Assembly: GCA_021850325.1 (NCBI GenBank)
Contig: JAJZMF010000007.1
Location: forward strand, 1-64,000
Direction: 5' to 3'
Origin: Actinomycetes bacterium
GTDB taxonomy: Bacteria > Actinomycetota > Acidimicrobiia > Acidimicrobiales > Palsa-688
DNA: 64,000 nt
The notes under the pieces are model-generated. The model did not search any database and was not told where the DNA came from. It saw only the letters and a list, made by a program, of their open reading frames with translations. Shown here piece after piece: positions 38,851 to 47,737 of the stretch. Positions within the stretch are counted from its first letter, which is position 1, and each line of letters opens with the position of its first letter. The position numbers and the translations under genes are program-made.

Positions 38851-39423
38851 TCAGCAAGCCCCCTGCGAGCCCCGGGCCGGCTCCTCGGCGGGGGCGGTGC
38901 CGAGCAGTGCCACCAGGTCGGCCCGGGCACGGGCTACCCGGGAGCGGACCGTGCCCACCGGGCAGTCGAGCACGGCCGCCGCCTCTTCGTAGGTGAGCCC
39001 CAGTTCCTGGGTGAGCACGAACGCCGCTCTCCGCTCCGGCGCCAAACGGGACAGCAGGTCCGACACGGTGCTGGCTTGGACCGGGTCCTGTCCTGTCCCC
39101 GGCACGTCCAGGCCCAGAGCGGCGCGGTTGGCGTCGCGGAGGCGCCGGCGGTGCCGTCCCCTGAGCTCGTCCATGCAGGTGCGCCGGGCTATGGAGAGCA
39201 CCCAGGTCCGGGCGGACGAGCCGCCCCGGAAGCCGCCCAGGGCCCGCAGGACGCGCACGAAGACGTCCTGGGCCAGGTCGTCAGCGGCGCGCCGGTCGAC
39301 CAGGGCGCAGCACAGCCGGTGGACATCGGGGTAGGTGGCCCTGACCAGCGCCTCGGCGGCGGCGTCATCGCCGTGCGCGGCCCGCCCAACCAGCAGCCCC
39401 AGGCGGTCCATGTCTACGAACAT
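38851..39423 (-). CDS. ECF-type RNA polymerase sigma factor
   Basis: The 190-residue sigma-70 family protein has region 2 (about 25-90) with ADDLAQDVFVRVLRAL and RTWVLSIARRTCMDELR, and region 4 (about 120-175) with LSRLAPERRAAFVLTQELGLTYEEAAAVLDCPVGTVRSRVARAR. Only these two domains are present, as in ECF sigma factors. A zinc-finger anti-sigma factor is encoded at the end of the divergent operon (42.7 kb), and an ECF-like promoter precedes that operon. The start is ATG 39423 or 39411; neither has a good ribosome site. Confidence 0.9.
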   Translation of the reverse strand: MFVDMDRLGLLVGRAAHGDDAAAEALVRATYPDVHRLCCALVDRRAADDLAQDVFVRVLRALGGFRGGSSARTWVLSIARRTCMDELRGRHRRRLRDANRAALGLDVPGTGQDPVQASTVSDLLSRLAPERRAAFVLTQELGLTYEEAAAVLDCPVGTVRSRVARARADLVALLGTAPAEEPARGSQGAC

Positions 39424-39482
39424 AGGTCGGGAGGACGGCCTCGCAACCGAGCAGGGCCACAGACGAGGCCTGCCCCGGGCCG

Positions 39483-39510
39483 GGAACCAGGGGGCCGGCT
39501 CGAGCGACTA
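39483..39510 (+). promoter_or_regulatory. Candidate ECF-sigma promoter
   Basis: GGAAC (39483-39487) is followed after 17 bases by CGACTA (39505-39510). GGAAC at -35 is the commonest ECF-sigma element and CGTC/CGAC-type -10 boxes are usual. It lies upstream of the SCO1-fusion operon and opposite the sigma gene, as expected for an autoregulated ECF system. Confidence 0.4.
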
Positions 39511-39570
39511 ATCAGGTCGTGAACTTGCCCTTCAGGCGGATCCAGCCATGAGCGCGTTGGGAGCCCAGCC

Positions 39571-41445
39571 GTGCCGGGCATGAGCTCGGGGCTGAACGCC
39601 AACAACCCGACCATCGTCGCCGCCTTCCAGTCCCTCCTCTACCACCAGGGCATCGTCGCCCTGGTTGTGCTGGTGGTGATGGCGGCGGCATGGCGGGCCT
39701 TGCGCATGCTCGAGCTCCGCCGGGCACTGTCGGGTGCCCCCGGCCCGGCCGAGCCCTGGCCGGGGGCTTCCGCCCTGACCACCGAAGCTCCGGGGCGCCG
39801 GCTGCTACGGGTGGGCTTCGGGCTGCTCTGGGTGCTCGACGGGATCCTCCAGGCTCAGCCCGACATGCCGTTGGGCATGACGACCGGCGTCATGCAACCG
39901 GCAGCTGCCTCCTCCCCCACCTGGGTCCAGCACGTGGCCAACGCCGGGGCCACGGTGTGGAGCTTCCACCCTGTCGAGGCGCCCGCCTCGGCTGTGTGGA
40001 TCCAGGTCGGCATCGGGCTCTGGCTGCTCGTTGCCACCCGGGGGACCTGGTCACGGCTGGCCGGCGTGGCCGCCGCCATCTGGGGCACCGTGGTGTGGGT
40101 CTTCGGCGAGGCCTTCGGTGGCCTGTTCGCCCCCGGGCTGAGCTGGCTCTACGGCGCACCGGGGGCGGCGCTCGCCTATGCCCTGGCCGGCGTCCTGGTG
40201 GCCCTGCCGGAGGAGTGGTGGGCCGGTCGGCGTCTCCCTCGCGCCCTCCTCAGGGCCCTGGGGTCGTTCCTGGTGGGCATGGCCCTGCTCCAGGCGTGGC
40301 CCGGGCGCGGCTTCTGGGAGGGCCACCTGCCCCACAGCGCCCTCCCGGGGAGCCTGGCCAGCATGTCGCACCGGATGGCCCTCACCCCCCAGCCGTCGGT
40401 CCTCTCGGGCTGGGTGAGCGCGTTCGCCGGCTTCGACGAGGCGCACGGTTTTGCCGTCAACTTCTTCGTCGTGACCTGCCTGGCCCTGACGGGAGCCGCC
40501 CTGGTGGTGGGCAGGAGGCGTGCGCTGCGTTATGCCGTCCTCGGGTACTGGGCCCTCAGCCTGGCCGACTGGGTGCTGGTCCAGGACCTTGGCTTCCTGG
40601 GTGGGGTGGGCACCGACCCCAACAGCATGGTGCCCCTGGCCCTCCTGGTGACCGCTGCCTACCTGGGGGTGACCAGGCTGCCTGCTCCGGGCGGTGCCAC
40701 CGCCACCGTGGTGCCCCTGGCCCGGGCCCAGTCCCTCGGGGCCCGCCTGGGTGGTTGGAGGCTGGCCCTGAGCCGGCACCCGGGGTACTTCCTACGGTCG
40801 GTCCTGGCCCTCGGCTCGGTCGGCATCGTGCTGCTCGGAGCGGTGCCCATGGCCCTCGCCTCGGCCCAGCCCAATGCCGACCCCATCATCGCCCAGGCCC
40901 TGAACGGCGTCCCCAACGTCACCGACTTCCCGGCCCGTACCTTCGCCCTGGTGGACCAGTACGGCCGCCCGGTGAGCCTACGGAGCCTGAGAGGCAGCAC
41001 GGTGGCCCTCACCTTCCTGGACCCTGTGTGCACCAATGACTGCCCGCTCATCGCCCGCTACTTCCGTCAGGCCGACAACCTCCTGTCGCCTGCATTGCGC
41101 CGCCGGGTGGAGATGGTGGCCATCGTGGCCAACCCGGTGTACCGGACCGGCTACTACGTCCGGGAGTTCGACCGCCAGGAAGGCATGCAGCACCTGGCCA
41201 ACTGGCTCTACCTCACAGGCCCCCTGCCCGCCCTGCAGAAAGCCTGGGCCGCCTATGGCATCCAGGTGTCCTACGAACCCGGGGGGGCCATGATCGGCCA
41301 CAGCGAACTGGCCTTCGTGATCGACGCCCGGGGCCGCGTCCGCTCGGTCCTGGAGGCGAGCCCCGGGTCGGGCACCCAGGCACAGACCTCCTCCCTTGCC
41401 TTCGAGCTGGCGGGCGCTCTCAGAACGGCAGCCCGTGGCCACTGA
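39571..41445 (+). CDS. Polytopic membrane protein fused to a SCO1/SenC copper-chaperone domain
   Basis: The 624-residue fusion has an N-terminal membrane part (about 20-430) with roughly 9-10 hydrophobic segments, including GFGLLWVLDGILQAQPDMP and VVWVFGEAFGGLFAPGLSWLYG, a set I associate with an unnamed actinobacterial membrane family. The C-terminal thioredoxin-fold domain (about 445-615) has Cys487-x3-Cys491 (CTNDCP) and His577 (IGHSELAFVID), the copper-binding triad of SCO1. SCO1 proteins deliver Cu(I) to cytochrome oxidase CuA. The two following genes overlap or nearly abut it. GTG 39571 (GGGAG upstream) or ATG 39580 could be the start. Confidence 0.82.
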   Translation: MPGMSSGLNANNPTIVAAFQSLLYHQGIVALVVLVVMAAAWRALRMLELRRALSGAPGPAEPWPGASALTTEAPGRRLLRVGFGLLWVLDGILQAQPDMPLGMTTGVMQPAAASSPTWVQHVANAGATVWSFHPVEAPASAVWIQVGIGLWLLVATRGTWSRLAGVAAAIWGTVVWVFGEAFGGLFAPGLSWLYGAPGAALAYALAGVLVALPEEWWAGRRLPRALLRALGSFLVGMALLQAWPGRGFWEGHLPHSALPGSLASMSHRMALTPQPSVLSGWVSAFAGFDEAHGFAVNFFVVTCLALTGAALVVGRRRALRYAVLGYWALSLADWVLVQDLGFLGGVGTDPNSMVPLALLVTAAYLGVTRLPAPGGATATVVPLARAQSLGARLGGWRLALSRHPGYFLRSVLALGSVGIVLLGAVPMALASAQPNADPIIAQALNGVPNVTDFPARTFALVDQYGRPVSLRSLRGSTVALTFLDPVCTNDCPLIARYFRQADNLLSPALRRRVEMVAIVANPVYRTGYYVREFDRQEGMQHLANWLYLTGPLPALQKAWAAYGIQVSYEPGGAMIGHSELAFVIDARGRVRSVLEASPGSGTQAQTSSLAFELAGALRTAARGH

Positions 41446-42664
41446 GCCGGTGGCCCCAACCCGCTCCGCTCGCCCGGGCCGGAGCCCGGGCGCCAGGCAC
41501 CGGTCGGCCGCTGTGCTGGCAGCCGCCGGGGCAGCCCTGTCGATCGGCCTGCCGGCAACGGCGGCAGCCGGGGCCACCAGGGCACGGGCAGCGCTGAGCG
41601 CGGTCCCCATGGCCACGTCCCTCACCACCACCCTCGGCACCTGGGCCAGCGTCCCCATGGGCCGCCTGGGCCAGCCCCTCAACACGTTCTGGCAGCTGTT
41701 CCTGGTCCCGGCCCACGGGCACCGCTGGGCAGACCATGCAGGTCAACTGGCGGTGGCCGACAACGGCGGCCTGCTCATGGCCGGCGCCGGCGGCCGTTCC
41801 CTCGTGGTGGCGGTCCGGCCCTCCGACCAGTTGCGCTTCTCGGCTGTGGTGAGCACAACCGATGGCCGGTCCTGGGGCCCCGTGCCACCGCTGAACGGGA
41901 CAGTTGCGTCCTTGGCGACGGGGGCGGACGGCAGTGACGTGGCGCTGGTCCGGGGACCGGGCGGACAGGCAGCCGTGCTCGCCTCCAGTGGTGGCAACGC
42001 CTGGCGGACCTTGCTCTCCGGCACCGCGTGGGGCCGGCGGGGCGCTGGCAGGCGGTGCGCGCCCGAGGCCCTCACCGCAGTGGCCGTGCTGGCCCCAGGC
42101 ACCCCCGTAGTAGGCACGGCATGCACCCGGCCCGGCACCACGGGCGTGTTCGTGGCCCACGGCAAGCTCTGGGCGCCGTTCGGCGGGGCTCACCTCGGAG
42201 GGCGGGCGGACGGCTCTGTGGTGCAGGTGCTCTCGCTCAGAGCAGGGGGCGGCGTGGTGTCGGCGCTGTTCGCCATGGGCACCGGCCGTGCCTCCCGTCT
42301 GGCCGAGGGCTGGGGCAGGGTGCATGGCCCGTGGCGGCTCTCAGCGCCGCTCGCCATGGCGCCCCACGGCTCGCTGGTGTCGGTCGGACCGGCTCCCCGG
42401 GGAGGGGAGTTCGTGCTCTACCGGGTGGGCCGGACGGGCCTGCGCCTGGCCGTGGTGGACGGCCCGGGCCGGAGGTGGCGGTCCCTGCCGCCACCTCCGG
42501 CGGGCACAGCGACGGTGGCCTTCCCCGGACCGGGCGTCGTGGAGGCACTGGCAGCCCACGGCTCCACGATGACGGTGTGGCGGCTCGGGGGCACCCCGGC
42601 ACACTGGGCACCGGTGCAGCGGCTCCACGTCGACATCCTCTACGGTTCCTCGAACCTGCGCTGA
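41435..42664 (+). CDS. Exported beta-propeller-like protein of the SCO1 operon
   Basis: The 409-residue protein has an N-terminal basic region and a hydrophobic, Ala-rich signal (about 22-60). The body shows repeated short blades of the kind seen in sialidase/BNR-like propellers: VVSTTDGRSWGPVPPLNG, LASSGGNAWRTLLSGT, VAHGKLWAPFG and GGTPAHWAPVQ, with the Asp-box-like S-x-D-G-x-x-W. Catalytic residues are not evident. It overlaps the SCO1-fusion gene by 11 bases (GTG at 41435). It is probably a surface accessory protein of the sigma/SCO1 system; the role is unknown. Confidence 0.65.
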   Translation: MATEPVAPTRSARPGRSPGARHRSAAVLAAAGAALSIGLPATAAAGATRARAALSAVPMATSLTTTLGTWASVPMGRLGQPLNTFWQLFLVPAHGHRWADHAGQLAVADNGGLLMAGAGGRSLVVAVRPSDQLRFSAVVSTTDGRSWGPVPPLNGTVASLATGADGSDVALVRGPGGQAAVLASSGGNAWRTLLSGTAWGRRGAGRRCAPEALTAVAVLAPGTPVVGTACTRPGTTGVFVAHGKLWAPFGGAHLGGRADGSVVQVLSLRAGGGVVSALFAMGTGRASRLAEGWGRVHGPWRLSAPLAMAPHGSLVSVGPAPRGGEFVLYRVGRTGLRLAVVDGPGRRWRSLPPPPAGTATVAFPGPGVVEALAAHGSTMTVWRLGGTPAHWAPVQRLHVDILYGSSNLR

Positions 42665-42672
42665 GCGCGAAC

Positions 42673-43320
42673 ATGGCACAAGGCACGCCGGGGGCCGGCG
42701 CGAACGGGCCGGTCGAGGGGAGGTGGTCGGGGCCCATGGGCCGACGCTCTGGTAGCGGTGCCGGTACCCGAGGACGCCAGAGGCGCGCCCGCTCCGACAG
42801 CGGTGGCACCGGGCGGGCCGCAGTGCTCAGCGCTTCCTGCTCCCTGGTGCAGGAGGCACTGAGCGCCCAGCTGGACGGAGAGCCGGCACCGCTGGGGACC
42901 TCGGAGGTGCTGGGCCACCTGGGCAGGTGCCGGCCCTGTCGGGAGTTCCAGGCGGCGGCCGGGTCGCTCGGGCTCCTGGCGCCCCCCGTTCCGCCAGCCG
43001 TGCCGTCGGAGCAGTTGGTTGCCGCTGTGGTGGCAACCAGGCCCCGGGGCCGTCTGGGCCGGAGGGCGTCACGCCTCGCCGGCCGGCTCGGGCCGGTTGG
43101 CCGGGACCGGCTGGGGCCGGCCTGGGCGGTACCGGCCATGCTCGTAGGTGTGGCCCTGCCACCTGCCGCCCTGGCCGCCTCGACCGGTCTGCAGCCGGCG
43201 CACGTGAGCTCACGCCCCCCGTGCAACGCCCTGTTGGGAGGGCACAGGGGCCTCGCCCCTCTGCCGCCCGTGCTCCGGCAGGTACGCCTCAGCCAGCCAA
43301 TGGGGCCCGCAAGAGGCTGA
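42673..43320 (+). CDS. Zinc-finger (ZAS-type) anti-sigma factor, membrane-anchored
   Basis: The protein has up to 215 residues. A ZAS core reads CSLVQEALSAQLDGEPAPLGTSEVLGHLGRCRPCREF, giving His82-x3-Cys86-x2-Cys89. A hydrophobic segment near 155-175 (AVPAMLVGVALPPAALAAS) would anchor it. Such proteins hold an ECF sigma factor inactive; its partner is most likely the sigma factor at 38.9-39.4 kb. The first about 50 residues are low-complexity, and GTG 42823, which opens directly into the ZAS core, is an equally good start. Its last 32 bases overlap the convergent GH51 gene. Confidence 0.7.
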   Translation: MAQGTPGAGANGPVEGRWSGPMGRRSGSGAGTRGRQRRARSDSGGTGRAAVLSASCSLVQEALSAQLDGEPAPLGTSEVLGHLGRCRPCREFQAAAGSLGLLAPPVPPAVPSEQLVAAVVATRPRGRLGRRASRLAGRLGPVGRDRLGPAWAVPAMLVGVALPPAALAASTGLQPAHVSSRPPCNALLGGHRGLAPLPPVLRQVRLSQPMGPARG

Positions 43321-44752
43321 ACGAACTGGCAGGGAGGTCGAGCTCCAACCTCCCCTCGACGGTCCGCTCACTGCTCCGGGTCGTCACCACGCCCTCCACA
43401 TCGGCCAGCTCCGTGCGGCCACCGGCCGTCAGCGTCGTGACCTCGACCGGCCCCTCGATCCCACCGATCGCGTCCAGGACGACCCTCTCCTGCGAACTGC
43501 TCCGGTTGACCACCGTCAGCGCCATGTGGCTGCCGTCCGACGAGACGGTGGAGGCGCAGTCGAGCAGCCCGAAGGGCCCGAGGTCCCTGACCCTGTGGGG
43601 CCACCTGGTACGCAGCTCCTCCGGCGCCTCAACAGTCGGGCCGTCCACGAAACAGTCCACAGCCGTGCCTTCATGGCCCTGCACGTGCAGCAGCAGGGGG
43701 TGGTAGATGGGCTGGCGCACGGCTGCTGTGGGAGTGGTGACTATGGGGGCGATGGCGTTCACCATCTGGGCCAGGTTCGCCATCTCCACCCAGTCGCAGT
43801 TGCGCACGAAGATGTTGAGGTAGGTCCCGACGGCCAGTGCGTCCTGGAACGCGTAACGCTCCTCGAGGCCACCGCCGTTCGTACGGAACCACACGTTCCA
43901 CTCGTCGTACGCGATGCGGGGGGGCCGGCTCAGCCCCTGGGCGTAGGCGGCCTGTGAGAGCACGCCCTTGAGGATGCCGATGGCGCGCTCGGCCATGTGG
44001 GGGGCCAGCAGGTTGCTCCAGTAGTCCTCGGAGCCGGTGTATATGTGGACCGAGTACAGCTCGACGAGCGACGCCAGGGCAGGCGCGACCTTCAGGTCCC
44101 ACTCGCTCCAGCCGGACTCCCCGCATGCCACGAACCTGGCTCCGGGGCTCAGGGCCCGCAGGGCCCTGGCCCACCGGGTGGCCTCGGCTATGTACTCCTC
44201 GGCCGACATGCTGCCCGTCTGCCAGTCCCCGTACATCTCGTTGCCCAGTCCCCACCACTCCACGCCGTAGGGCTCGGGGTGGCCGCCCTCCCGCCGCCGC
44301 TCCGACCACGTCGTGCCACCGGGCACGTTGCAGTACTCGACCCAGTTCAGGGCCTCCTCCAGGGTGCCGGTGCCCATGTTCAGGCAGATGTAGGGCTCGG
44401 CGCCCAGGGCCCGGCAGTACGCGATGAACTCGTCGGTACCGAACGTGTTGGGCTCGGCTCCCCCCCACGCGAGCTCGGGCCGGGACGGCCGTTCCTGCAC
44501 TGGGCCTATGCCGTCGGCCCAGTGGTAGTTCGACACGAAGTTGCCACCCGGCCAGCGCAGGACCGGCACCCTCAGGTCGCGCAGCAGGTCGAGCACGTCG
44601 GTGCGGAACCCACGCTCGTCACTGAGGGCCGAGCCGGGCTCGTAGAGCCCACCGTAGATGCACCGTCCCAGGTGCTCGACGAAGCCGCCGTAGACCCGTT
44701 TGCCCAGGGGGCCTATGGCCCGACGTGGGTTGACGGTCACCTTGGTCGTCAT
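43289..44752 (-). CDS. GH51 alpha-L-arabinofuranosidase
   Basis: The 487-residue cytoplasmic enzyme (no signal peptide) has an N-terminal GGFVEHLGRCIYGGLYEPGS, LRWPGGNFVSNYHWADGIGP, acid/base Glu172 (GLGNEMYG) and nucleophile Glu284 (IAYDEWNVW), with a C-terminal beta sandwich. It removes terminal arabinofuranosyl units from arabino-oligosaccharides. AAGGAGGG lies 8 bases before the ATG at 44752. It follows the Gfo/Idh gene on the same strand after a small hairpin, so it may be the last gene of the LacI-controlled transport operon. Confidence 0.93.
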   Translation of the reverse strand: MTTKVTVNPRRAIGPLGKRVYGGFVEHLGRCIYGGLYEPGSALSDERGFRTDVLDLLRDLRVPVLRWPGGNFVSNYHWADGIGPVQERPSRPELAWGGAEPNTFGTDEFIAYCRALGAEPYICLNMGTGTLEEALNWVEYCNVPGGTTWSERRREGGHPEPYGVEWWGLGNEMYGDWQTGSMSAEEYIAEATRWARALRALSPGARFVACGESGWSEWDLKVAPALASLVELYSVHIYTGSEDYWSNLLAPHMAERAIGILKGVLSQAAYAQGLSRPPRIAYDEWNVWFRTNGGGLEERYAFQDALAVGTYLNIFVRNCDWVEMANLAQMVNAIAPIVTTPTAAVRQPIYHPLLLHVQGHEGTAVDCFVDGPTVEAPEELRTRWPHRVRDLGPFGLLDCASTVSSDGSHMALTVVNRSSSQERVVLDAIGGIEGPVEVTTLTAGGRTELADVEGVVTTRSSERTVEGRLELDLPASSFSLLRAPLAG

Positions 44753-44774
44753 GTGCGATGCCCTCCTTGCCTGT

Positions 44775-44797
44775 CCCCCGACCGGCGTGGTCAGGGG
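44775..44797 (-). terminator. Small hairpin between the Gfo/Idh and GH51 genes
   Basis: CCCCCGACC (44775-44783) pairs with GGTCAGGGG (44789-44797) with one mismatch, in the 52-bp gap just before the GH51 ribosome site. It may attenuate read-through or stabilise an mRNA end. Confidence 0.35.
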
Positions 44798-44804
44798 CCC
44801 TCGC

Positions 44805-46001
44805 TCACCTGGCCCCGGTTGTCACGCAGCCGGCCCCGGGCCCGCCCGGCACCGCCCAGGGTACGTCGAGCTGCGAGAAGAGCCGGCCCGTCCTGCTCGT
44901 CCCATGGACCGCGCCACCGACCCCCGCAAGGACCGGGTAAGCCTCCATTCCCTCCCCGTGCCAGCGCACGTGCTCCGGGGGCACCTCGCGCACAGGGAGG
45001 GAATGGAGCAGCTCGACCACCTCGACGAAGGGCCGCGACCGCTCCAGGGGGCAGGAGAGCCCGGCTCCGGGCCGGCCGGCCACCAGGTCCACGAGCTGGC
45101 CCAGGAGGCTCTGGCGCTCGAAGTGCTCCTGCCACGAGCGGCCCCCCACCGAGAACTGCAGCGCATCGGTCTCGTAGGGCCAGACCACCTGGCCGCCCGG
45201 GCCCCGCACCTCCAGGGCGGGCGGCTCCACCTCCTCGGCGCACAGGGTGAGCGCGACCACGAAAGAGCGGCCACCGGCGAGCTCGACCCGCATGCAGCCG
45301 GTGTCCTCGACCTCGATGGGGTTGGCCCGGTAGCGCTCGGCCGCGAACGCCGCCACCCGCTCCCCCGTACCCGCACCTGCGGCCAGCACGCAGTTCATCA
45401 CAGCATGGGCGAAGGGGTTGGAGAACGCGCCGTCGCGCACCAGTGCCCCGTCGAGCACCTCGCGGCCCGCCCACCGGGACCGGTACCAGTAGCTGCGCGG
45501 GCGGCGCCACTGCCCGGCCGCCACCACTTCGACCGGTCCTGCCAGCTCGGAGCCGGCGACCACCTGGTGCAACCGGCCGAGGGCGGCCGACCCCGTGCTC
45601 TGGAACCCGACCTGGCACAGGGCCCCCTTGCGGGACGCCAGTGCGCTCAGGGCGTCGAAGTCCTCCAGCGACACGAAGGGCGGCTTCTCGACGAGCACGT
45701 GCAGGCCCCGCTCGAAAGCCGCACGGCACATGTCGGCGTGCAGGTGCAAAGGGGTGGCGACGACCAGGACGTCCAGGTCATGCCGCTGGCCCAACATCAG
45801 GCGCCAGTCGGTGAAGTGCTCGGCGCCCAGCCGGGAGAGCACAGCCGTGGCCTCCTCACCGGGGGCGACCACGTCGGCACAGGCGGCCAGGCGCGCCTGC
45901 CCCAGGCCGGCGAGGCGGTCGAGCTCACGCAGGTGGGACGCGCCGTAGCCGTGCAACCCCACCAGCCCAACCGCCGGTGCTCCGTGGATCCCTGCCATCA
46001 C
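44805..46001 (-). CDS. Gfo/Idh/MocA-family oxidoreductase
   Basis: The 398-residue NAD(P)-dependent dehydrogenase has Rossmann motif GLVGLHGYGASH at about 12-23 and VLVEKPPF with the conserved EKP, then a beta-sheet domain with AGREVLDGALVRDGAFSNPFAHAV in place of the usual G-G-x-x-x-D-x-G-x-H. Such enzymes oxidise sugars, inositols or sugar acids. The start overlaps the heparinase-like gene stop (GTG 46001 or ATG 45998). It is part of the operon with the sugar transporter. Confidence 0.85.
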   Translation of the reverse strand: MMAGIHGAPAVGLVGLHGYGASHLRELDRLAGLGQARLAACADVVAPGEEATAVLSRLGAEHFTDWRLMLGQRHDLDVLVVATPLHLHADMCRAAFERGLHVLVEKPPFVSLEDFDALSALASRKGALCQVGFQSTGSAALGRLHQVVAGSELAGPVEVVAAGQWRRPRSYWYRSRWAGREVLDGALVRDGAFSNPFAHAVMNCVLAAGAGTGERVAAFAAERYRANPIEVEDTGCMRVELAGGRSFVVALTLCAEEVEPPALEVRGPGGQVVWPYETDALQFSVGGRSWQEHFERQSLLGQLVDLVAGRPGAGLSCPLERSRPFVEVVELLHSLPVREVPPEHVRWHGEGMEAYPVLAGVGGAVHGTSRTGRLFSQLDVPWAVPGGPGAGCVTTGAR

Positions 46002-47737
46002 GCCCCCACCCGTTGCAGCAAGAGCACCGCAGTGCCCGGGGCCCTCCCCGTTATGTACACCCGCTCACCCTCGGCAGCGTCGGTCGCACCCAGATAGGTG
46101 TAGTCCTCTCCGGGCCAGTAGGCGGGTGGGCGGTCCGGGCCGGTGCCGTTGCCAGGGCCGAAACGGACCACGTCGGGGCCCACCCGGTAGGCGGCGGTGC
46201 CCCTGACCAGTTCCCATTGACCGGGGCCGGTGGGGCGCAGCTCGCCCGGCCCGTCGGCGTCCTCGACCACCTCGAGCTCCCCACCCGGGCGGAAGGCCAG
46301 CTCCAGTGCCCATGCCGAGGGCGGGCCCTCGGTACGGAGCGTGACCTCGGCGCCGTCCTCAGCCAGGCGCACCTGCACCCTCGTCCTGAGACCGAGCACG
46401 TCGGCAGCACGGTCGGAGAACGACATCGCCGAAACGAACCGGCCCTCGTCCTCCAAGCGGTACTGGCCGTCGGCGCGCCTCGACCCAGGGGCCAGGGGTT
46501 GGTAGTAGGCGCCGCTGACCGCCTCCTCCATCACGTACCTGTCCCCCTCCAGGCAGGCCGACCCGGCCCGGAAGGGCCCGAGCCCGAAGAAGTCACGAGA
46601 CAGGCGGACAGACCCGAGGACCACCTGGCCGGCGAACATCCGCAGGAACGTCGGGTTGTGGGCGAGCCCGGACCGGGCCCGGCGGAACCGGGCGTAGTCG
46701 CTGCCCCCGTAGGCGACGACATGGACGCGCCCGGTCACGTGCGCCACCAGGCCGGCGTCCGCCAGGTGCTCCAGCCTCGGCAGCGGGGGCGCGACAGGGG
46801 CAGGCAGCACGGCGGCGAGGGCAGGCCGCGCGATGACGGCGGCCAGCGTCCGGCCTGCGTCGCGCACCGGCCCCTGCAGGGCAAGGTCTGCGGCCCAACT
46901 GAAGTCGCCGCGGCCCGTTCCGATGGCCATGCGGCGCAGCTGCAGGAGGTAGTCGGCCAGGGCGAAGCTCGTCCCCTGGTCCTGGCGCCGCGACTGCACG
47001 GTCTCCACTGTCCCGTCGGGCAGCACCATCGCCAGGGTGGACTCGAGGTTGCGCTCGACTACGTCGAGCAGCTCAGGGCGCCCGAGCACGTCGGCGATCA
47101 GGATCAGGGACGGGTTGGAGACATGGGCGGCGTAGTTGGGGCTCCTCTCGGAGTAGGTGCCGTCGCCGTGCACGTCCACACCCTCGGCAAGCCAGGCCTC
47201 GACCCGTTCGGCCAGGGACGGGTGCGGCCAGCTGCGGTGCAGCGCGGCCAGCGCGGCGCTCAGCTGCCAGCGGTGGTTCGCCGTGTGCACGCCGCCTGCG
47301 AGGAGCGCCGGGCGCACCGCATGGGCGAGCGCCTCCAGCTCGGGCGCCACCCCCGAGGCAGCCCCTGTGCTGTCGCCGTTCAGCAGCTCGTACAGGTCGC
47401 ACAGGTCCACCACCGTGAAGGCCGAGTCCGGCGGGGACTCGACGTTGCCGTCACCGCTGAACAGGCCCGAGGGCCCGAGCAGGCCCCGGGCCGTGCTCAC
47501 CAGGCGGCCCACCGCACCGAGCACCGCCGCGCTGCCCCGGTGGCGGGAACCCCCCCACAGGGCGACCGCAGCCAGCGCCTTGGCCGAGGCCATGACCCTG
47601 CGTGGCCCCAGGGCATGCAGCCCGGGGGCGTCGAGGGTGCCCAGTTGGGCGTACAACCGGTCGCACTCGAGGTCGGCGGCCCTGGTGACGGCATCGACGA
47701 AGTGCTGGTCCCGGGAGCCCGCACCGCTCGGGTTCAC
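45998..47737 (-). CDS. Heparinase II/III-like polysaccharide lyase or related enzyme
   Basis: The 579-residue protein has an N-terminal helical toroid (about 1-310) with GGVHTANHRWQLSAALAAL, YSERSPNYAAHVSNPSLILIADVLG and QSRRQDQ, followed by a beta-sandwich half (about 330-579) with YGGSDYARFRRARSGLAHNPTFLR. Asn, His and Tyr residues in the helical part match the general heparinase II/III-like plan. There is no signal peptide, suggesting action on imported oligosaccharides. The GTG start is 7 bases after the permease stop, so it is co-transcribed with the transporter. Activity on uronic-acid-containing oligosaccharides is inferred only. Confidence 0.72.
   Translation of the reverse strand: MNPSGAGSRDQHFVDAVTRAADLECDRLYAQLGTLDAPGLHALGPRRVMASAKALAAVALWGGSRHRGSAAVLGAVGRLVSTARGLLGPSGLFSGDGNVESPPDSAFTVVDLCDLYELLNGDSTGAASGVAPELEALAHAVRPALLAGGVHTANHRWQLSAALAALHRSWPHPSLAERVEAWLAEGVDVHGDGTYSERSPNYAAHVSNPSLILIADVLGRPELLDVVERNLESTLAMVLPDGTVETVQSRRQDQGTSFALADYLLQLRRMAIGTGRGDFSWAADLALQGPVRDAGRTLAAVIARPALAAVLPAPVAPPLPRLEHLADAGLVAHVTGRVHVVAYGGSDYARFRRARSGLAHNPTFLRMFAGQVVLGSVRLSRDFFGLGPFRAGSACLEGDRYVMEEAVSGAYYQPLAPGSRRADGQYRLEDEGRFVSAMSFSDRAADVLGLRTRVQVRLAEDGAEVTLRTEGPPSAWALELAFRPGGELEVVEDADGPGELRPTGPGQWELVRGTAAYRVGPDVVRFGPGNGTGPDRPPAYWPGEDYTYLGATDAAEGERVYITGRAPGTAVLLLQRVGA

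Follow-up and report, generated by a model that had tools for sequence, protein, structure and literature searches.

A SigC-like sigma factor, its membrane anti-sigma factor and a SCO-fusion operon in an Acidimicrobiales genome: a probable circuit for copper loading of cytochrome c oxidase

We analyzed a 64,000-nucleotide stretch of DNA (the window), contig C40 in an Acidimicrobiales genome of 3.18 Mb. In it, an extracytoplasmic function (ECF) sigma factor gene on the minus strand lies divergent to a plus-strand operon that encodes, in order, a membrane domain fused to a SCO1 domain (MEM-SCO), an exported beta-propeller and a zf-HC2 zinc-finger anti-sigma factor (ZAS). These genes probably constitute a SigC-like sigma/anti-sigma circuit that controls the copper loading of cytochrome c oxidase. 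We call SigC-type copper control the known part of this system, and the dedicated anti-sigma factor and the unusual SCO-fusion target its new part. No description of such a circuit was found in the open-access literature searched, a scope that leaves out most subscription papers; to that extent we agree with a preliminary description of this DNA, which named no described system with this architecture.

The four genes are as that description had them: the sigma factor, SCO1-SenC and zf-HC2 matches all exceed their Pfam cut-offs, and the propeller was recognized by its AlphaFold model. The sigma factor gene (38851-39423, minus strand) matches Sigma70_r2 (E 1.7e-15) and Sigma70_r4_2 (E 5.9e-16), and its product scores 80.4 bits with TIGR02937 (cut-off 42.9). 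With regions 2 and 4 only, in about 190 amino acids, the protein has the ECF layout. Judged against homologues, the true start is probably the second ATG, at 39411. By profile comparison SigC is the closest named sigma factor: the NCBIfam SigC model PRK09649 gives 117.7 bits for the window sigma and 51.8 bits for the next sigma factor of the same genome. Among solved structures, two fragments of Mycobacterium tuberculosis SigC reach 87.7 bits (81 residues) and 82.5 bits (56 residues), and their sum exceeds the score of every full-length sigma factor of known structure (best 109 bits). Another copper-related sigma factor, CorE, detects copper through a Cys-rich domain at its own C-terminus. Such a domain is absent from the window sigma, which ends about 20 residues after region 4 and has a single Cys there. 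Myxococcus CorE is likewise an ECF sigma factor and is reported to answer to copper (PMC3107203).

To place the window in context, homologous loci were gathered by searching the order, which yielded 72 distinct loci with a membrane-SCO pair. Many of them come from metagenome-assembled genomes, and their gene starts are uncertain. A divergent sigma factor is present in 16 of the 72. Twelve linked sigma factors, from four families, form one clade (support 98/99) apart from the other sigma factors of the window genome; the window's own sigma appears in the tree as L082_other. When a profile of these 12 was run against 397 genomes, the ten best matches were exactly the ten linked sigma factors. 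The next 20 relatives also point to copper, with 15 of them lying beside CopCD, YcnI (DUF1775), PCuAC, SCO or CtaG genes. The preliminary description had seen a copper- or thiol-sensing envelope system. The link to copper holds. As the sigma factor belongs to a broader set of SigC-like factors associated with copper trafficking, however, copper supply or oxidase assembly is more likely to be the signal than general copper or thiol stress. As an observation in its own right, the relatives (L181-L200, for instance L195:5045-9240) head a copper-trafficking regulon across the order that comprises ZAS, CopCD, YcnI, PCuAC and SCO genes, with the promoter GGGAACY-N16-CGACY. A membrane protein of about 330-350 amino acids without a Pfam match recurs beside CopCD/YcnI (L187:5823-6815, with equivalents in L182, L183, L189, L191, L192, L195, L197 and L199).

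A promoter of the form GGAAC-N17-CGACTA had been proposed ahead of the operon, and it is indeed present at 39483-39510. We place the putative sigma-dependent promoter at 39482-39510 on the plus strand, with a -35 hexamer GGGAAC (39482-39487), a -10 hexamer CGACTA (39505-39510) and a transcription start expected near 39517. The pattern is unique in the window genome, where a reversed control pattern has 4 matches. All GC-rich loci in which the sigma gene directly faces MEM share GGAAC and the 17-base spacer, followed by a variable -10 (CGACTA, GCACTA, TCTCTA, CGACCA or CGACGA), 36 to 115 bases upstream of MEM. The element occurs at this fixed spacing in 11 of 12 GC-rich sigma-bearing loci and in none of 31 GC-rich sigma-less ones (Fisher test, 2e-9), so its conservation is not due to chance. 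Because the pattern behind this count was set after half of the positives had been seen, the loci of the sigma relatives serve as the independent test. Around the 20 further relatives, GGGAACY-N16-CGACY gave 20 matches at spacer 16 and 0 to 2 at each other spacer between 8 and 25; the reversed control gave none at spacer 16. Many of these elements stand 29 to 155 bases upstream of ZAS, YcnI, SCO or PCuAC genes. The twelfth GC-rich locus, L137, has GGGGAACTC-N16-CCACTC upstream of an operon led by ZAS. The sigma/anti-sigma/promoter circuit of the preliminary description is supported, as is the promoter itself.

Two extensions of this promoter assignment were rejected. A wide regulon in the window genome is not borne out, as the remaining motif matches fall inside open reading frames. 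Autoregulation of the sigma gene through the element was discarded as well: no motif in reverse orientation points toward the sigma gene in 11 of the 12 loci, and the GGAAC of L049 has no -10. Since the sigma gene lacks the motif, the regulatory loop would run through the anti-sigma factor. A shared promoter was also looked for, and not found, in the four low-GC loci L072, L073, L143 and L144.

The ZAS open reading frame covers 42673-43320 (plus strand), and comparison with homologues places its start probably near the GTG at 42823. Its zf-HC2 match (PF13490; residues 56-90) has an E value of 8.8e-7 and 29.4 bits against a cut-off of 22.2, and the predicted zinc-finger anti-sigma domain, with the arrangement C-x(n)-H-x3-C-x2-C, lies at 42838-42942. 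A single transmembrane helix is predicted after the finger (43126-43182); the topology is taken from hydropathy, which peaks at 1.71 over 19 residues. The short tail that follows (43183-43317) would face outward and carries a conserved Pro-Cys (Cys codon 43222-43224) and His. Of nine aligned proteins, eight have one Cys in this tail, mostly after Pro and with a His nearby: the tails read HVSSRPPCNALLGGH in the window, HHPTPCTAEL in L034, HVPTPCTLLL in L109, SHTPSACTHEL in L111 and TAPATPCTASL in L118. The ZAS proteins of L072, L073, L110, L143 and L144 also have the tail Cys. Those beside CopCD/YcnI, and that of L137, have instead of the tail a four-helix domain with the conserved motifs H-x-x-[RH]-[ED] and E-x-x-H. 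As a small control, we inspected three other zf-HC2 proteins of the window genome, two of which have a helix, with long outer parts that contain 0 and 1 Cys. The outward Cys/His tail of ZAS is a plausible sensor.

The position of ZAS varies. It lies downstream of the propeller in the window and in the GC-rich loci L062, L116, L118 and L111, after CtaG in L034, L049 and L109, and directly after the sigma gene in L137. L038 and L039 end before the position of ZAS, and L110 retains a ZAS fragment only. No ZAS was detected in the sigma-less loci. The low-GC loci L072, L073, L143 and L144 have a multi-helix zinc-finger protein between the sigma gene and MEM; in L073 its finger lacks the usual His. 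These four loci come from another family (f32) and perhaps represent an independent pairing of a sigma factor with a zinc-finger protein.

The first product of the operon, MEM-SCO (39571-41445, plus strand), has 624 amino acids and an AlphaFold model (predicted local distance difference test, pLDDT, 92.1; predicted template modelling score, pTM, 0.91). Its C-terminal SCO1 domain (40927-41436) matches PF02630 (SCO1-SenC; E 7.7e-8, above the cut-off). By VIA-align, the model of this domain matches Bradyrhizobium ScoI (4wbj; Z 20.2, root-mean-square deviation 2.2 over 154 residues) and human SCO1 (Z about 20). The C-x3-C motif and the His claimed for it are in place as C487-TND-C491 and H577 (Cys codons 41029-41031 and 41041-41043, His codon 41299-41301). 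The Cys-Cys-His ligands are kept in 62 of 69 homologues, including all sigma-linked ones. We also observed that in L055, L080, L122 and L123 the SCO domain has lost all three ligands, the two Cys and the His, although the fusion is otherwise retained, which may indicate a non-metal role.

The membrane domain is modelled as two duplicated helical halves, residues 72-214 (39784-40212) and 216-372 (40216-40686); aligned to each other with hhalign, the halves give a probability of 97.7 and an E value of 2e-12. A fold search with the whole protein was filled by matches to the SCO domain. Membership in the DoxX family was rejected on the profile, which matched none of 69 membrane-domain members at E values up to 1. 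The duplicated membrane domain also stands alone, in several copies per genome and at times beside CtaG (L029-L032, L064, L067, L077, L081). The MEM copy of the nearest same-genus genome (G069) was rejected as an orthologue of the whole system: it lacks SCO and lies in a his/trp neighbourhood. The window genome has a second SCO, L001 (G000:C42:7849-8355), joined to a thioredoxin-like domain and encoded after a CcdA-like gene. This arrangement recurs in the sigma-led cluster L181; no sigma gene was seen in the short L001 stretch.

The GTG start of the propeller gene (41435-42664, plus strand) overlaps the MEM-SCO stop. The protein has no Pfam match, and the assignment comes from an AlphaFold model (pLDDT 86.5) that aligns with several propellers at VIA-align Z values of about 20. 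Matches to lectin-like and enzyme-like propellers (CylK, PLL) were taken as shared fold only. Cys residues at positions 208 and 230 are near-invariant. A weak profile match to Ycf48 covers 63 residues (E 8e-6). The two share the character of an exported propeller linked to the assembly of a membrane redox complex, which for Ycf48 is photosystem II, but membership was rejected because PSII_BNR matches 1 of 40 homologues, and not the window protein.

What the core genes do is suggested by their neighbours. Among the 57 of the 72 loci with enough flanking sequence, the propeller is next to the fusion in 40, CtaG is nearby in 31, COX1/COX2 in 18 and either CtaG or COX in 34; the family identities were confirmed. 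Several loci have the order MEM-SCO, propeller, CtaG, a cupredoxin-like protein without Pfam match, COX2 and COX1. Because CtaG and oxidase subunits lie nearby in many loci, the MEM-SCO/propeller core is best read, from gene order, as an oxidase copper-assembly module that usually occurs without a sigma factor; the sigma factor and ZAS are an added layer on it. The preliminary description had spoken of a self-contained circuit, and here we differ: the SCO fusion and propeller exist mostly without the sigma factor and are linked to CtaG and to oxidase subunits I and II. SCO and CtaG are assembly factors for the CuA and, tentatively, the CuB sites of the oxidase (PMC9145763), and the window protein has the SCO fold and ligands. 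A usual Sco protein sits on one helix or a lipid anchor (PMC9145763), whereas here the domain is fused to a duplicated polytopic one and followed by a propeller.

As in a SigC-type copper regulon, the sigma factor is linked to copper-supply and oxidase-assembly genes and the promoter precedes them. In M. tuberculosis, SigC prevents copper starvation (PMC7924339), and in Corynebacterium glutamicum copper deprivation or disturbed heme a insertion into the aa3 oxidase switches on the sigma C regulon (PMC7337898). We propose the following circuit. The cytoplasmic zinc-finger domain of ZAS would hold the sigma factor at the membrane while copper is delivered outside the membrane. Low outside copper, or an unfilled CuA site, would shift the state of the His/Cys tail and free the sigma factor, which would then read GGGAACY-N16-CGACY and transcribe MEM-SCO, propeller and ZAS genes (in relatives, CtaG and oxidase genes as well). 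The added SCO chaperone and its partners would restore copper delivery, and newly made ZAS would close the loop. We infer the binding of sigma to ZAS, the tail as sensor, copper shortage as the signal and the propeller as assembly partner. Shortage is preferred over excess on two grounds: the targets serve copper delivery and import, and SigC acts in this way in other bacteria.

Several observations weigh against this reading. The CtaG and COX2 genes of the window genome lie on other contigs, and the element stands in promoter position only once in that genome, before the MEM-SCO operon; the oxidase link in the window genome is for these reasons one by homology. The window sigma falls below the curated SigC cut-off (117.7 against 219 bits), under which the C. 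glutamicum sigma factor used as a control falls likewise. The four low-GC linked sigma factors lie outside the clade and lack the promoter motif. Finally, the C. glutamicum sigma C targets named in the cited paper, cydABCD (PMC7337898), differ from those found here.

The main rival, which we consider possible but unlikely, is a sensor of metal excess or thiol stress. A toxic metal would hit the tail Cys and release the sigma factor, and the envelope or oxidase would be protected or repaired, in the manner of sigma F and NrsF of Caulobacter crescentus. The lone conserved Cys of the ZAS tail fits this idea, as does the origin of several homologues, whose site names hint at acidic sediments rich in metals. 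NrsF is not known to have a zinc finger. It is also polytopic, whereas the window ZAS has one predicted helix. Both are membrane anti-sigma factors with a conserved outward Cys: NrsF senses metals through its periplasmic Cys and governs a small regulon that includes a DoxX protein, but the reported signals are chromium and cadmium, and the reported regulon contains no SCO, propeller or CtaG (PMC3511200). Moreover, the targets of the system described here are copper-use chaperones and importers (SCO, CtaG, PCuAC, CopCD, YcnI) and not efflux pumps or detoxification enzymes, the operon has no bufferin or MNIO gene, and the sigma factor is SigC-like and showed no kinship to sigma F in any test made.

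With similarly low confidence we consider ZAS as an oxidase-assembly checkpoint, whose tail the SCO fusion and propeller might read, load with copper or engage in thiol exchange; transcription of the chaperones would then follow the filling of CuA. If true, this would be a one-helix, tail-only sensor of copper or of assembly for a SigC-like sigma factor. We find it rather improbable that the signal is assembly status and not copper, with the SCO domain or propeller acting on the tail Cys as a thiol substrate and a busy (copper-less or oxidised) SCO directly altering ZAS. Consistent with it, one operon encodes both the SCO fusion and ZAS, the parts concerned are expected to face the same membrane side, SCO proteins have thiol-disulfide activity (PMC9145763), and the propeller and the ZAS tail contribute two near-invariant Cys and one Cys, respectively. 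Relatives without MEM-SCO, however, have a four-helix ZAS with His motifs, so SCO is not generally needed. That the sigma/ZAS pair lies beside the SCO operon by chance and serves an unrelated stress is very improbable: 56 of the 72 MEM-SCO loci lack a sigma factor, but the promoter occurs only with it, ZAS is in the same operon and the linkage is kept over four families.

The preferred circuit resembles the SigC systems of M. tuberculosis and C. glutamicum, which act on copper supply and the aa3 oxidase (PMC7924339, PMC7337898), and to which the sigma factor is closest by profile. It differs in that the target operon itself encodes a dedicated transmembrane zf-HC2 anti-sigma factor, and in its targets, a SCO fusion and a propeller where those of SigC are ctpB/nrp or cydABCD. 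The papers cited connect the SigC-type sigma factors of actinobacteria with copper supply and the aa3 oxidase, and describe no dedicated sensor for them. Here a group of SigC-like sigma factors is accompanied by a transmembrane anti-sigma factor, by a defined promoter and by a copper-delivery gene set. There are two alternative candidates for the sensor part: a four-helix domain that has conserved His, and a single helix with a His/Cys tail. What is gained is a sensor hypothesis that can be addressed by mutation, a motif with which the regulon can be listed, and an oxidase-assembly module, the membrane-SCO fusion with the propeller, that had no name before. The system would be a testable case of copper-supply sensing outside the cell membrane in an acid-soil actinobacterium.

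Next to the operon, a convergent gene at 43289-47737 encodes an alpha-L-arabinofuranosidase. It belongs to a minus-strand gene run, is unrelated to the circuit, and overlaps the ZAS open reading frame tail-to-tail at 43289-43320.

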